Assembly: GCA_014763895.1 (NCBI GenBank)
Contig: JACXUM010000006.1
Span: 1-64,000 of the forward strand
Direction: 5' to 3'
DNA: 64,000 nt
Origin: Campylobacterales bacterium
Lineage (GTDB): Bacteria > Campylobacterota > Campylobacteria > Campylobacterales > Sulfurovaceae
Below are positions 3,916 through 8,266 of this stretch, in pieces. Position 1 is the stretch's first letter. The number at the start of each line of letters is the position of its first letter. Under the pieces are notes generated by a model. It was not told the DNA's origin. It did no database searches and saw nothing but the letters and a program-made list of their open reading frames with translations. Both the position numbers and the translations under genes were made by a program.

Positions 3916-3949
3916 ACGTTACAATTTGATACATAATATAGGAAAATAC

Positions 3950-5071
3950 GTGTCTGATATAACATTGGTCCTTTTGGGCGCTGGTAGTTCAACCCGGTTT
4001 AAATCTCCTGTCAAAAAACAATGGATCTATAACGGAGAAGTTCCGTTATGGCTGCATGTTGCCCAAAGATTTGAAAAAACTGCTGACTTTAGGCAGATCA
4101 TTGTCGTTTCGAGTAAAGAAGAGATTGCATACATGCCGTATTTCGCAGATTATCAATTTGTTGAAGGCGGTGATACAAGACAGGATTCTCTGAGCAATGC
4201 TATCAAAGAAGTTAAAACCTCTTATGTCCTGGTAAGCGATATCGCTCGCTGTTGTATCGATGCCGCGATGATCCAACGCATCATCGCGGCTAAAGAAGAA
4301 GCATCCTGTATCGTTCCTGCTTTAAAGGTTGTGGATACCCTTTATCTGCAAGATTTACCTATCGACAGAGAAGAAGTGAAGATCATACAGACCCCTCAAC
4401 TAAGCAAGACGGCTATCTTAAAAGTGGCGCTTCAAACCAAAACCATGTTTACAGATGAAAGTTCTGCTATTAAGGCGTTAGGCGAGACTATTAGCTTTGT
4501 AGAAGGTTCTTCGTTGGCACATAAGCTGACTACAATAGAAGATCTTGCAAAACTTCCTTGCCTCAAAGCGCCCTCTTCCAAAACACGCACAGGTTTTGGG
4601 ATGGATATCCATCCGTTCCAAAACGGAAAAACGATGATGCTTTGCGGGGTCAAGATCGATGTAGACTTCGGGTTCAAAGCCCATAGTGACGGAGATGTTG
4701 CTATCCATGCACTGATCGATGCACTGTTGGGAGCAGCAGGAATGGGCGATATCGGAGAGCTCTATCCTGACACGGACCAAAAGTATGCGGGGGTGGATTC
4801 GAAGCTACTGTTGAAAGATACGGTTGCAAAGATCAAGGCCTTTGGTTTTGAAATAGGAAATGTGGACATGACGATCGTGGCACAAGCACCAAAACTCATG
4901 CCGTATAAATCACAAATGAGAAAATCTATCGCAACGATGCTTGACATCAAACAACATTTGGTTAATATCAAAGCGACAACTGCAGAAAATCTTGGATTTG
5001 TAGGCCGTAAAGAAGGCGTAACCGTACATGCGGTTGCCAATTTAACTTATTTTGACTGGAAAACATTATGA
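3950..5071 (+). CDS. ispDF: Bifunctional IspD/IspF, methylerythritol phosphate isoprenoid pathway
   Basis: A fusion of 2-C-methyl-D-erythritol 4-phosphate cytidylyltransferase (N-terminal ~205 residues) and 2,4-cyclodiphosphate synthase (C-terminal ~160). The IspD half starts with the nucleotide-binding loop LGAGSSTRF. The IspF half has the metal-binding DIHPF motif, the SDGDVAIHALIDAL block and the TTAENLGFVGRKEG end motif. The fusion is typical of Campylobacterota. The frame could begin at a TTG (3926), but the GTG at 3950 is preceded by AGGAAA at correct spacing and gives the usual N-terminus, so it is preferred. The stop overlaps the next start in ATGA. Confidence 0.95.
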   Translation: MSDITLVLLGAGSSTRFKSPVKKQWIYNGEVPLWLHVAQRFEKTADFRQIIVVSSKEEIAYMPYFADYQFVEGGDTRQDSLSNAIKEVKTSYVLVSDIARCCIDAAMIQRIIAAKEEASCIVPALKVVDTLYLQDLPIDREEVKIIQTPQLSKTAILKVALQTKTMFTDESSAIKALGETISFVEGSSLAHKLTTIEDLAKLPCLKAPSSKTRTGFGMDIHPFQNGKTMMLCGVKIDVDFGFKAHSDGDVAIHALIDALLGAAGMGDIGELYPDTDQKYAGVDSKLLLKDTVAKIKAFGFEIGNVDMTIVAQAPKLMPYKSQMRKSIATMLDIKQHLVNIKATTAENLGFVGRKEGVTVHAVANLTYFDWKTL

Positions 5072-5949
5072 AAATCATCATTATAGAAAATGAACTTTAT
5101 CTTGCTCAAAGTATCGCATCCAAATTGAGTGAACATGGTTTTGAGACAGAAGTTTTCAGTTCAATCAAAGAAGCAATGCAAAGCAAAGGGGATGTCTATC
5201 TTCTCTCAACCAATCTGCCAGGCCAAAACATCACACTGTTGATCAAAGAGTTTAATGACAAGATCATCATCCTTATGGTCAATTATATCAATAATGATAC
5301 GGTTGGAGAACCTCTTAGACTTGGTGCAAAAGACTATATCGTCAAGCCTTTCATGATCGAAGAACTTTTACGCAAGATAGATCACTATAAAGAGTATCAG
5401 GAACTCAAAAAAAACACCAGACTCTATCAGGAATATATGCAAAACCTGCTTCAGGAGATAGAGACCGATTTTGATACAGACAAATTAACCATACCTATCG
5501 TCATTCAGACCAATTATCAAAGGCTGGTTGATAAAATCGTTTTTGAATATGTCCAGAAAAAAGATATGCTACTTACATTTGTTCCTCTAACCAGTGAAAA
5601 TTGGCGCGAAAAGATCATCCAAAGCGGAACCAATACATTACTTTATATTACCGAGCTTCAGGCATTGAAAAAAAGTGATAGGGAACAACTTTTTGAACTG
5701 CTTAAAAATTATGATTTTATCATGTGCTCTACTGCAGAACTAGACTGTGATTTTGAAACGATCATTCTCAATACTGAAAACAAGCTTTATGATCAAAATG
5801 AGATATTAACGATTGACGATTATGTAAAATTTATCGTAAACAGCTTCCAATACAAGTTCCCTGATACGGAACTCTCAAAGAAACTTGGAATATCTAGAAA
5901 AAGCTTGTGGGAAAAAAGGAAAAAGTATGGACTCTTCAAAAAGAAATAA
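5068..5949 (+). CDS. HP1021/Cj1608-like orphan response regulator with pseudo-receiver
   Basis: A 293-residue regulator: a CheY-like N-terminal domain (1-115), a middle region (to ~255) and a C-terminal helix-turn-helix (KLGISRKSLWEKRKKYG). The receiver is atypical. The acidic pair after the first strand is EN (IIIENELY), the usual phospho-acceptor Asp position reads S (LLSTNLPG), and only the conserved Lys (IVKPF) remains, so phosphotransfer is unlikely. HP1021 of Helicobacter and Cj1608 of Campylobacter have this build, and in C. jejuni the gene likewise sits between ispDF and the sulfurylase-like gene. HP1021 is reported to be a redox-responsive transcription factor that also binds oriC; the equivalence here is inferred from architecture and position. 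Confidence 0.8.
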   Translation: MKIIIIENELYLAQSIASKLSEHGFETEVFSSIKEAMQSKGDVYLLSTNLPGQNITLLIKEFNDKIIILMVNYINNDTVGEPLRLGAKDYIVKPFMIEELLRKIDHYKEYQELKKNTRLYQEYMQNLLQEIETDFDTDKLTIPIVIQTNYQRLVDKIVFEYVQKKDMLLTFVPLTSENWREKIIQSGTNTLLYITELQALKKSDREQLFELLKNYDFIMCSTAELDCDFETIILNTENKLYDQNEILTIDDYVKFIVNSFQYKFPDTELSKKLGISRKSLWEKRKKYGLFKKK

Positions 5950-7126
5950 AGACTCAAAACAACTTTACATCGATACAGAGGCACTTTCTACCTTGGCACT
6001 GGTCAAAGCTGGGCTTATCGCGCCCGTTACAAAATTGATGAACAAAACAGAGGCCATGGAAGTTGATAAAACAAAAATGTATAAAGGTGTTCCATTCCCT
6101 TTTGCTTTCTTGCTGGCTCCAAAAGGTACACGCAACAAAAGAACATTGGAAAATTTAACGAAAGGTGATGTGGTAGATCTGATCACTGAAGATACAAAAG
6201 TCGGGGAACTGATCGTTGAGGATACGTTCAGGATCGATCCAATACAACGTTTGCACCATATCTACGGGACAGCGGATGAAAGTCATCCAGGGGTTAAAAA
6301 CACAATGGCCCGACTTGGAGAAATCGCTATATCAGGTGAATATACCGTACAATACCCCCTCATTGATGATAATATCAAACGTATCAAACAGATGATCAAT
6401 AAAACCGGTGCAAAAACCATCACGTCCATGATGCTTGCGGCAAACCCTCTTAATAGAGCCCATGAGAGAATTATCCGCCAGGCAGTCGGAGAAAGTGACC
6501 TGCTTGTAATCTTTTTAAGAAAACCTTTTACAAAAAAAGGGCTTCGTTACGATATACGTCACAAAGCGCTCACAACGTTTATAGATAACTTCTTACCACG
6601 CAATAAAGTCCTCGTTATTCCTTTTGAAAATACCTATATTTTTGCAGGATACAATGAGCTCATTCTGGATGCACTCCTAGCAAAAAACTATGGCTGTACA
6701 CAACTGGTCATAGGGAAAAATCATGGTGGTTTGGGGCTCTATTATGATCAAAACCGTTTGGCTTCCATCTTTGATAAATTCAAAGATCTGGATATCCGGA
6801 TCAAAACGATCGATGAATTTGTTTATTGTGATACCTGCAAAACACTTGTAAGTACACAAACCTGTCCGCATGGTCAGCATCATCACGTTCATTATCATTC
6901 CGAATCGATCATGAAATTGATCCAAAGCGGTCTTGTCCCTCCTTCAATCCTTGTCAGGAAAGAGGTTTCGGCAAATATCCTTGCAGCACTCTTTCCTAAC
7001 CGGTTTGAGAATCTACAGGAGATGCATTATTCACTCATGCCCGGATCTGGATTGATTGAACAACAAAGCGAAGAGCAGTTCTATCTGAAACTGATCGAAC
7101 TCTATCAAACCTCTTCTCTAACGTAA
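5927..7126 (+). CDS. ATP-sulfurylase-like protein with divergent active site
   Basis: A 399-residue protein with the layout of bacterial ATP sulfurylase: N-terminal PUA-like domain (1-150), nucleotidyl-transferase domain, and the zinc-type segment CDTCKTLVSTQTCPHGQHHH near 300. The catalytic motif normally written QTRNPxHRAHE reads LAANPLNRAHE, so the Gln, Arg and first His are replaced, and GRDHAGVG reads GKNHGGLG. A role in sulfate activation is therefore uncertain. The ATG at 5927 has AAGGAAAAAG before it and overlaps the upstream gene by 23 bases; a TTG at 5885 is less likely. The C. jejuni equivalent, Cj1609, is annotated as a sulfate adenylyltransferase and has the same neighbours. Confidence 0.75.
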   Translation: MDSSKRNKDSKQLYIDTEALSTLALVKAGLIAPVTKLMNKTEAMEVDKTKMYKGVPFPFAFLLAPKGTRNKRTLENLTKGDVVDLITEDTKVGELIVEDTFRIDPIQRLHHIYGTADESHPGVKNTMARLGEIAISGEYTVQYPLIDDNIKRIKQMINKTGAKTITSMMLAANPLNRAHERIIRQAVGESDLLVIFLRKPFTKKGLRYDIRHKALTTFIDNFLPRNKVLVIPFENTYIFAGYNELILDALLAKNYGCTQLVIGKNHGGLGLYYDQNRLASIFDKFKDLDIRIKTIDEFVYCDTCKTLVSTQTCPHGQHHHVHYHSESIMKLIQSGLVPPSILVRKEVSANILAALFPNRFENLQEMHYSLMPGSGLIEQQSEEQFYLKLIELYQTSSLT

Positions 7127-7138
7127 AAAGGAATATCA

Positions 7139-7633
7139 ATGACACCGCAAAAACTTTTTTTAACTTTTTTTGGTGCCGGTTTAAGTCCAAAAGCACCCGG
7201 CACTGTAGGAACACTCGCATCACTTCCGGTTGGTCTTGCTATTCTTTACTATCTTGGAATTCAAACACTCTTTATGATGACACTTGCCATCACGATCATC
7301 GGCATCCTGGAGATCAATAAATATGAAAAACTCACCGGGGACCATGACCAAAAAGAGATCGTCATTGATGAAGCAGCAGGTATGTGGCTTTCTCTTATGA
7401 TCGCATACTCAACAGCCGTTACGATGAACTATCCCTATGCCGAAATCGGTGCGATCAGTGTCAGTTTTCTGGCATTCCGTCTGTTTGACATATGGAAACC
7501 TTCTACGATAGGATGGATTGACAGGGAACTTAAAGGCGGCCTTGGGGTAATGGGTGATGATGTTCTAGCAGGCATCGCAGGAGGGCTTTTAACTTCCCTT
7601 ATCTTAATGGGAATTAATAAATTTCTGTCTTAA
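7139..7633 (+). CDS. pgpA: Phosphatidylglycerophosphatase A
   Basis: A 164-residue inner-membrane phosphatase that removes phosphate from phosphatidylglycerophosphate to give phosphatidylglycerol. The N-terminal block GAGLSPKAPGTVGTLASLP, the acidic motif VIDEAAGMWL and the C-terminal GGLGVMGDDVLAG segment are hallmark PgpA motifs, with hydrophobic helices between them. It ends the ispDF cluster, and its 3' end overlaps the oppositely oriented HEAGH protein gene by 30 bases. Confidence 0.93.
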   Translation: MTPQKLFLTFFGAGLSPKAPGTVGTLASLPVGLAILYYLGIQTLFMMTLAITIIGILEINKYEKLTGDHDQKEIVIDEAAGMWLSLMIAYSTAVTMNYPYAEIGAISVSFLAFRLFDIWKPSTIGWIDRELKGGLGVMGDDVLAGIAGGLLTSLILMGINKFLS

Positions 7634-8266
7634 ATTCTTCTTATGATGATCTTTAAATGCTTCAAATAGAAGTCTGACAATTGAATAGATCATCAAAAAA
7701 TATCCCACTAAACGGGTAAAACCGGAAATGAATGATTCATATTCCAAGATACCCAGTGCTGTAAAGATATAATGGAAATCATGTATCGCATCTACACCCA
7801 GGAAGGATTTACTTGCAGGTAATACCGCACCTTCATGTGCCGTTGACATATACCAGGCAGTATATAACAATGAAAAACCTGTAAAAAATAAAGCTATGTA
7901 GGCTCCAAAATCATTTTTCCGTTTTTTATAGTAAACCATCACTCCAACCGGAAAGAATACTTGAAACAACGTACCGTTAAGTACCATTAAAAATTGTGGA
8001 CAGGGAAAAATGTAACAGACCCCATGTCCTGCTTCATGAATGATCCCCAGTGCTTGATTGGCAACAAAAAAATAGAGTGTAAAAATCTGGCCTATCCATG
8101 AGTGAGATGAAGTATAATGAGGTCCCCATGGAGCATAGTGAGGAAATAGAAGTAAAAAAATAGACAATAAAACAGCAATGGTTTTTTTTCCCATTGGAGT
8201 AATATCCTTTAAAGACCGATCTGTTCTTTTAGGGAACAACTCTTTTAAATATTCTTTGTCTTCCAT
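7604..8266 (-). CDS. Integral membrane protein with HEAGH motif, putative zinc metalloprotease
   Basis: A 220-residue protein with about five hydrophobic segments. The segment IIHEAGHGVCYIFPCP places a HExxH zinc motif at the start of a membrane helix, followed by LNGTLFQVFFPVGVMVYY. A second acidic/His cluster (DAIHDFHYIF) further on could supply a third ligand. This resembles M50-like intramembrane proteases or peptidase-fold membrane proteins, but I cannot place it in a named family. Its start lies inside the 3' end of the malic enzyme gene (22-bp overlap), so the two are translationally linked. Its 3' end overlaps pgpA on the opposite strand. Confidence 0.6.
   Translation of the reverse strand: MEDKEYLKELFPKRTDRSLKDITPMGKKTIAVLLSIFLLLFPHYAPWGPHYTSSHSWIGQIFTLYFFVANQALGIIHEAGHGVCYIFPCPQFLMVLNGTLFQVFFPVGVMVYYKKRKNDFGAYIALFFTGFSLLYTAWYMSTAHEGAVLPASKSFLGVDAIHDFHYIFTALGILEYESFISGFTRLVGYFLMIYSIVRLLFEAFKDHHKKNLRQKFINSH

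Follow-up and report, generated by a model that had tools for sequence, protein, structure and literature searches.

In the 64,000-nt window (the whole stretch of DNA that was analyzed), a gene for an ATP-sulfurylase-like protein (ATPSL) lies between a regulator gene, itself preceded by ispDF, and pgpA (Table 1). The 3' end of the regulator overlaps the ATPSL ORF by 23 bases, and pgpA starts 12 bases past the ATPSL stop codon. A 220-aa ORF with no Pfam match lies beside pgpA on the opposite strand (7607-8266).

Table 1. Features of the ATPSL locus, in window coordinates.
Feature	Position	Strand	Basis
ispDF, bifunctional MEP-pathway enzyme, upstream	3926..5071	+	NF006899, 494 bits (cutoff 417); synteny
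Atypical response regulator, CemR/HP1021/Cj1608 type by position	5068..5949	+	PF00072, 36.1 bits; synteny
ATPSL, ATP-sulfurylase-like protein, 399 aa	5927..7126	+	ORF with ATG start; translation; PF01747 and PUA_2; AF2 model vs. 1v47
N-terminal PUA-like domain (domain I)	5939..6346	+	PF14306 (PUA_2), residues 5-140, 57.8 bits, E 1.3e-15
Catalytic domain II and domain III	6380..6982	+	PF01747, residues 152-352, 186.4 bits, E 6e-55
Degenerate QxRNPxHxxHE, reads LAANPLNRAHE	6434..6466	+	Residues 170-180; Gln, Arg, first His lost; Asn, Pro, second His, Glu kept
Degenerate GRDHAGVG, reads GKNHGGLG	6713..6736	+	Residues 263-270; ribose-contacting Gly and His retained
Zinc-type CxxC-x8-CPH motif (C301, C304, C313, H315)	6827..6871	+	155/155 relatives, 46/46 genera; by sequence
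Family-specific GxHHHxxY (G316, H318, H319, H320, Y323)	6872..6895	+	Abuts the lost SGTxxR position
Position of pyrophosphate-binding SGTxxR, reads HSESIM: lost	6896..6913	+	Ser 2/155, Thr 1/155, Arg 5/155
C-terminal tail of ATPSL, ending FYxxLxxLYQTSSL	6992..7120	+	Alignment of 155 relatives
pgpA, phosphatidylglycerophosphatase A	7139..7633	+	PF04608, 135.1 bits; synteny

Among solved structures, ATPSL is closest in sequence to those of the zinc-type enzymes 8a8d and 1v47. Its PF01747 score of 186.4 bits is above the gathering score (24.3); on the NCBIfam sulfurylase models it falls below the cutoffs (NF003166, 191.1 vs. 387; TIGR00339, 126.6 vs. 322.95). The AF2 model has the three-domain sulfurylase fold, with a Z score of 28.5 over 330 residues against 1v47, and Foldseek matches it to 8a8d (E 9.5e-25). 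It also resembles phosphopantetheine adenylyltransferases (Z about 12), with a Rossmann-like catalytic domain. The model was built from near relatives and has a mean pLDDT of 76.9, with good values through domain I and over most of domain II and poor ones in domain III, where 10-residue means are 41-64 from residue 301 on. Domain III was also considered as a separate known fold, but a 111-residue C-terminal piece found only ATP sulfurylase in Pfam; among solved chains its best matches were again ATP sulfurylases, and weaker rows (E 0.047 and above) were taken as chance.

Active-site and zinc motifs

In the A. vinosum enzyme, whose numbering is used here for active-site positions, sulfate is reported to be bound by Gln199, Arg201, and the Ala299 amide; the alpha-phosphate is contacted by Thr200, the Arg201 amide, and Asn202; the ribose by the Gly295 amide, the Arg296 carbonyl, and His298; and the pyrophosphate and transition state by Asn202, His205, His208, and Arg365 of SGTxxR, with the GxxKxxD loop forming a lid (PMC3779200). 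In an alignment of ATPSL with the solved ATP sulfurylases 8a8d, 1v47, and 1jhd, LAANPLNRAHE stands opposite QTRNPMHRAHE of 1jhd, with changes of Q to L, T to A, R to A, and the first H to N, and with the N, P, second H, and E kept; GKNHGGLG stands opposite GRDHAGVG, with changes of R to K, D to N, and A to G. This agrees with both motif readings of an earlier, sequence-only reading of this DNA, which had also described the zinc-type segment (CDTCKTLVSTQTCPHG, residues 301-316, window 6827-6874) as kept.

Conservation was counted, anchored on the motif Pro, in 155 distinct degenerate and 6 canonical sequences drawn from 196 loci and the window. One locus with a broken frame (L062) was left out of the 155-sequence alignment, and one with stops (L076) out of alignment A1. 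The set of 155 is skewed to Sulfurovum, as it includes the 80 nearest relatives; a second set of 46 genera from 12 families, one representative each, corrects for this.

The sulfate-binding Gln199 and Arg201 are each found in none of the 155 relatives and none of the 46 genera. All counted motif residues, these two included, are present in nine of nine canonical sequences (six from the phylum and the three solved ones). No other Campylobacterota copy of ATPSL in the set has the canonical motif, so the idea of an altered site is not contradicted by the relatives of the window protein, and the change is not one of local decay. Elsewhere in the first motif, Thr200 is kept in 11 of the 155, Asn202 in 103, His205 in 65 (with Asn in 89), His208 in 154, and Glu209 in all; in the second, Gly295 in 152, Arg296 in 12, Asp297 in none, and His298 in 148. 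The Gly position of the lid loop is Pro in 131/155, and its Asp position is Asp in 6/155. By genus, SGTxxR keeps its Ser in 2/46, Thr in 1/46, and Arg in 3/46; the His205 position is H in 38, N in 7, and T in 1; and His208 is present in 45, Glu209 in 46, Gly295 in 43, and His298 in 39. Position 199 is L, M, or I in 42/46 genera and position 201 is A in 39/46. As read from these alignments, three elements are lost throughout the family: the side chains that bind sulfate, the lid loop, and SGTxxR.

Loss of the catalytic Gln and Arg, proposed in the sequence-only reading, thus extends to the whole family; loss of the first His, proposed with them, does not. At its position, f3g10, f3g56, and each of the five f1 genera examined have Asn, and f2g9 has Thr; the change to Asn is lineage-specific and mostly a Sulfurovaceae trait. 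The suggestion that sulfate activation may be lost can be put more strongly: with the sulfate and pyrophosphate side chains absent family-wide, it is very probable. Loss of SGTxxR and the near-invariant GxHHH had not been mentioned in the sequence-only reading.

Family f2 was counted separately. In the 37 genera outside it, Q199 and R201 are each found in 0/37, H208 in 37/37, and G295 and H298 each in 36/37. Within f2 the ribose His298 is kept in 3/9 genera, and one genus is also without H208, so what is preserved may be something other than nucleotide binding.

Positions conserved at 95% or more are most frequent in domain III (16/58, vs. 8/137 in domain II and 3/149 in domain I). The Cys3-His ligands of a zinc-type domain III, C301, C304, C313, and H315 in ATPSL numbering, are present in all 155 relatives, as are G316 and H318; H319 and H320 are each found in 154, and Y323 in 152. 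In the genus set, the four zinc ligands, His318, and Tyr323 are at 46/46 each and His319 and His320 at 45/46 each. Outside f2 the zinc ligands and H318 are at 37/37 and H319 and H320 at 36/37, and C301/C304/C313/H315/H318-H320 are intact in 9/9 genera of f2 as well. The canonical sequences compared have no equivalent of the ATPSL tail from residue 365 on, the end of which has the family form FYxxLxxLYQTxSL. On alignment evidence, this tail and GxHHHxxY are family-specific conserved features.

Like the zinc-binding Sat enzymes of Thermus (1v47) and Methanothermococcus (8a8d), then, ATPSL has a three-domain fold (at ~26% identity) with a PUA-like domain I, a Cys3-His zinc motif in domain III, the second His and the Glu of HxxHE, and the ribose Gly and His. 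Unlike them, it is without the sulfate Gln and Arg, the GxxKxxD loop, and SGTxxR; it has the new GxHHHxxY and the C-terminal tail; and its host genome has no convincing APS-using enzyme among those searched (see below). With HxGH nucleotidyltransferases, for example the phosphopantetheine adenylyltransferase CoaD, it shares a Rossmann-like catalytic domain and an HxxH-type motif; it differs from them in its extra domains I and III and in the loss of SGTxxR, which we take to be the sulfurylase form of that superfamily's second phosphate-binding motif. At two f3 g17 loci (L126, L140) the first motif reads SSFDPFHRAHE, which is close to the FDPxHxGH pattern of general nucleotidyltransferases.

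Distribution and gene neighborhood

Of the 397 Campylobacterota genomes, 307 have a PF01747 match, representing 53 of 68 genera, and ATPSL is present in 305. The 92 ATPSL-negative genomes are the 90 without a match, G122 (canonical enzyme only), and G376 (E 6e-4). Those without a match fall mainly in f2 genera g21, g34, g35, and g38, in most of f6, and in f5. Apart from 20 that are listed, they were identified by their absence from the match table, with which the count of 90 agrees. ATPSL is therefore not universally needed.

Phmmer scores to the window protein fall into two groups, degenerate sequences at 197.7 bits or more and canonical ones at 129.2 or less. In a 55-row tree, a single branch with 100/100 support sets off all 46 degenerate rows. 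They cluster largely by family, with f3 and f10 each not cleanly separated, a topology that is read here as an old origin and mainly vertical descent of ATPSL. Between near relatives dN is 0.09-0.14, and synonymous change is saturated in all but one of six pairs, for which it is 2.46: ATPSL is under purifying selection. Plasmid records yield 28 matches, the closest of the 15 listed being a Sulfurovum; four unannotated non-Campylobacterota plasmid matches were checked for degenerate copies outside the phylum, and all have GRDHAG or GRDHSG. The diverged-sulfurylase fold and kind are already known. In the open-access literature, no description was found of phylum-wide loss of both substrate sites together with a family-specific His motif, nor anything on ATP sulfurylase as a pseudoenzyme.

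Two copies are unusual in form. One of 601 aa (L149) has a long N-terminal extension; a gene fusion was considered and rejected, the extension being judged low-complexity by eye. In Sulfurovum mangrovi (L216, 2262-3440; NZ_CP087125.1) the frame is disrupted close to the 3' end, and the gene annotated in RefSeq is cut short. As the frame is regained at the tail, this break may be a sequencing error.

The sequence-only reading had suggested a conserved cluster with a regulator and lipid enzymes, and this is borne out. Of the 104 degenerate loci, 100 have the regulator as the next gene upstream, 100 have ispDF at most three genes upstream, and 93 have pgpA at most two genes downstream; for the 52 of these loci outside the near-relative set, the corresponding numbers are 48, 49, and 44. 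(L152, L173, and L184 are outside the synteny count.) None of the three genes is found in these positions at any of five canonical sulfurylase loci. Among the Helicobacter- and Arcobacter-type genomes examined, ispDF, the regulator, and pgpA are contiguous without ATPSL at L197, L205, L206, L208, and L211. The regulator has other genes after it at L210 and L212. G387, G007, and G117 have no regulator match either, so that G387 may represent an assembly gap.

In three f6 genera (L160, L161, L193) ATPSL is outside the ispDF cluster and divergent from queH, and in 3/3 it is followed directly by a short lipoprotein-like ORF. A queuosine link was considered and set aside: QueH is present in 80/80 genomes tested, so its distribution is uninformative. 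A link to N-glycosylation was likewise rejected as an explanation. PglB/STT3 (PF02516) is associated with ATPSL in 80 genomes if phylogeny is ignored (33/46 positive vs. 8/34 negative genomes), with 13 positives lacking it and 8 negatives having it.

Cj1608 is reported to be under redox regulation (PMC12632262), and in HpCemR and CjCemR the redox Cys is described at residue 27 (PMC11334517). The window regulator has Thr at this position, as counted by eye, and so may not use a redox Cys switch.

Sulfur metabolism and Cj1609

The source genome has no convincing APS-using enzyme among those searched. For CysD/CysH, the best PF01507 match is weak (E 3.7e-5; strong matches elsewhere are ~1e-50); for APS kinase there is a weak match (E 4.1e-4, positions 12-72 of 152) marginally above the Pfam cutoff; and AprA reaches 24 bits against a cutoff of 641.75. 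Taking a best E below about 1e-30, as read from the table, as a strong PF01507 match, such matches are found in 98/305 ATPSL-positive vs. 38/92 ATPSL-negative genomes, which shows no association (Fisher p 0.13), and are missing in 207/305 genomes with ATPSL. A link of ATPSL to sulfate assimilation was rejected on this distribution.

Five f3-g17 genomes have a separate canonical sulfurylase alongside ATPSL, and APS kinase is nearby in three of the five canonical loci examined. Lineages that make APS therefore appear to use a separate gene. At L177, L178, and L179 the canonical sulfurylase has APS kinase nearby (and at L179 also a pyruvate-kinase-like neighbor); the enzymes at these three loci possibly supply PAPS for sulfated surface glycans.

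Growth on sulfate is reportedly not possible for C. jejuni (PMC9855970). ATP sulfurylase is listed for Sulfurimonas (PMC4584964), and some of these entries may be ATPSL; relabeling the family removes a false step from reconstructions of Campylobacterota sulfur metabolism.

The reported C. jejuni gene order is Cj1607 (ispDF), Cj1608 (regulator), Cj1609 (PMC4435418), and by gene order Cj1609, annotated as a sulfate adenyltransferase, is the expected orthologue of ATPSL. It is described as core in four Campylobacter species and as TraDIS-essential in just two of these, C. jejuni and C. coli (PMC10077673). The main text of an earlier C. jejuni essential-gene list has cj1607 and cj1610 and does not have Cj1609; given this pattern, the essentiality of Cj1609 in C. 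jejuni could be due to polarity on pgpA.

Possible functions

The residues for sulfate and pyrophosphate are lost, yet the protein is kept in a conserved gene cluster and has a histidine cluster of its own; a different job is therefore very probable. ATPSL is very probably not an ATP sulfurylase, and would instead be a repurposed Zn/His protein, likely nucleotide-binding. The sequence-only reading had proposed a different nucleotidyl-transfer role. The difference in role stands; nucleotidyl transfer is weakened as a proposal, since SGTxxR is gone in addition to the sulfate site and the pattern of conservation does not suggest a classical adenylyl transfer with release of pyrophosphate. That pattern is matched no less well by metal chemistry or by nucleotide sensing.

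The explanation preferred here, plausible although short of probable, is that ATPSL is an anciently repurposed sulfurylase performing or gating a step that depends on nucleotide and metal and differs from sulfate adenylylation. An ancient ATP sulfurylase, passed on mainly by vertical inheritance in Campylobacterota, would have lost sulfate activation, while its old pocket would still bind an adenine nucleotide. Domain III, braced by zinc, would hold its histidines, probably with a bound metal, over this pocket; because the AF2 model is poor in domain III, we can only infer this placement of the His triplet. Most economically, the metal/His center would have replaced the former pyrophosphate chemistry, and ATPSL would perform or gate a nucleotide- and metal-dependent step in core physiology. 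In the version favored here, ATPSL would act, with the help of a metal, on a nucleotide or a nucleotide-bound substrate; a non-catalytic sensor or scaffold of similar build comes close behind. Catalysis is placed slightly ahead because of the strong retention of His208, Gly295, and His298 outside f2. A more specific proposal, and a more speculative one, is that a zinc-braced His-triplet center at the old pyrophosphate site acts on an adenine nucleotide and couples the isoprenoid/phospholipid cluster to nucleotide or redox state, and that it is essential in the main food-borne Campylobacter. An apparently explained gene thus becomes a testable question, for which H179, H266, H318-H320, and C301/C304/C313 are starting residues.

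The non-catalytic possibility is that ATPSL is a pseudoenzyme whose Zn/His domain III, perhaps with nucleotide or redox/metal state, regulates a partner (CemR, IspDF, PgpA, or a membrane process). The zinc/His domain is the best conserved part of a protein that has been stripped of both substrate sites; the main evidence is from f2, where pocket residues erode and C301/C304/C313/H315/H318-H320 are still at 9/9. The tight linkage to a regulator of a redox-controlled type (PMC12632262, for Cj1608) is in keeping with it. A pure scaffold, however, would hardly need H208, E209, G295, and H298 in 36-37 of the 37 genera outside f2. CemR is also described as functional in H. pylori and A. butzleri (PMC11334517), and the sampled Helicobacter- and Arcobacter-type genomes have the regulator and pgpA without ATPSL, which is therefore not generally required for CemR or PgpA. 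Overall this remains a possible but somewhat doubtful reading. Less likely is that ATPSL is a nucleotidyltransferase whose acceptor has changed, perhaps to a lipid or isoprenoid phosphate. Here the Gln/Arg site would have become a small or hydrophobic pocket, as the residues now common at positions 199 (L/M/I 42/46) and 201 (A 39/46) would allow. HxxHE is largely intact (H205 in 38/46 and H208 in 45/46 genera), the neighboring genes belong to lipid pathways, and the AF2 model is similar to phosphopantetheine adenylyltransferases; but with SGTxxR gone (Arg 3/46, Thr 1/46) such an enzyme would need a new way of handling pyrophosphate, and the adjoining lipid steps already have enzymes of their own.

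The annotation itself, under which ATPSL would still be an ATP sulfurylase (or a selenate or molybdate adenylyltransferase) acting through substitute residues, agrees with the fold, the Pfam domain, and the RefSeq label of the Sulfurovum mangrovi copy (sulfate adenylyltransferase). It is very improbable in view of the family-wide absence of sulfate and pyrophosphate side chains, the NCBIfam scores far below their cutoffs, the lack of a convincing APS-using enzyme among those searched in the source genome, the reported failure of C. jejuni to grow on sulfate (PMC9855970), and the separate canonical enzyme of some lineages. Equally hard to credit, and already largely refuted, is a decaying relict gene on its way to being lost. 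The clusters without ATPSL in Helicobacter- and Arcobacter-type genomes and the additional erosion in f2 would be expected of a relict; presence in 305/397 genomes, a dN far below dS, residues invariant over 12 families, and the reported TraDIS essentiality in C. jejuni and C. coli (PMC10077673) argue for a gene that is being maintained.
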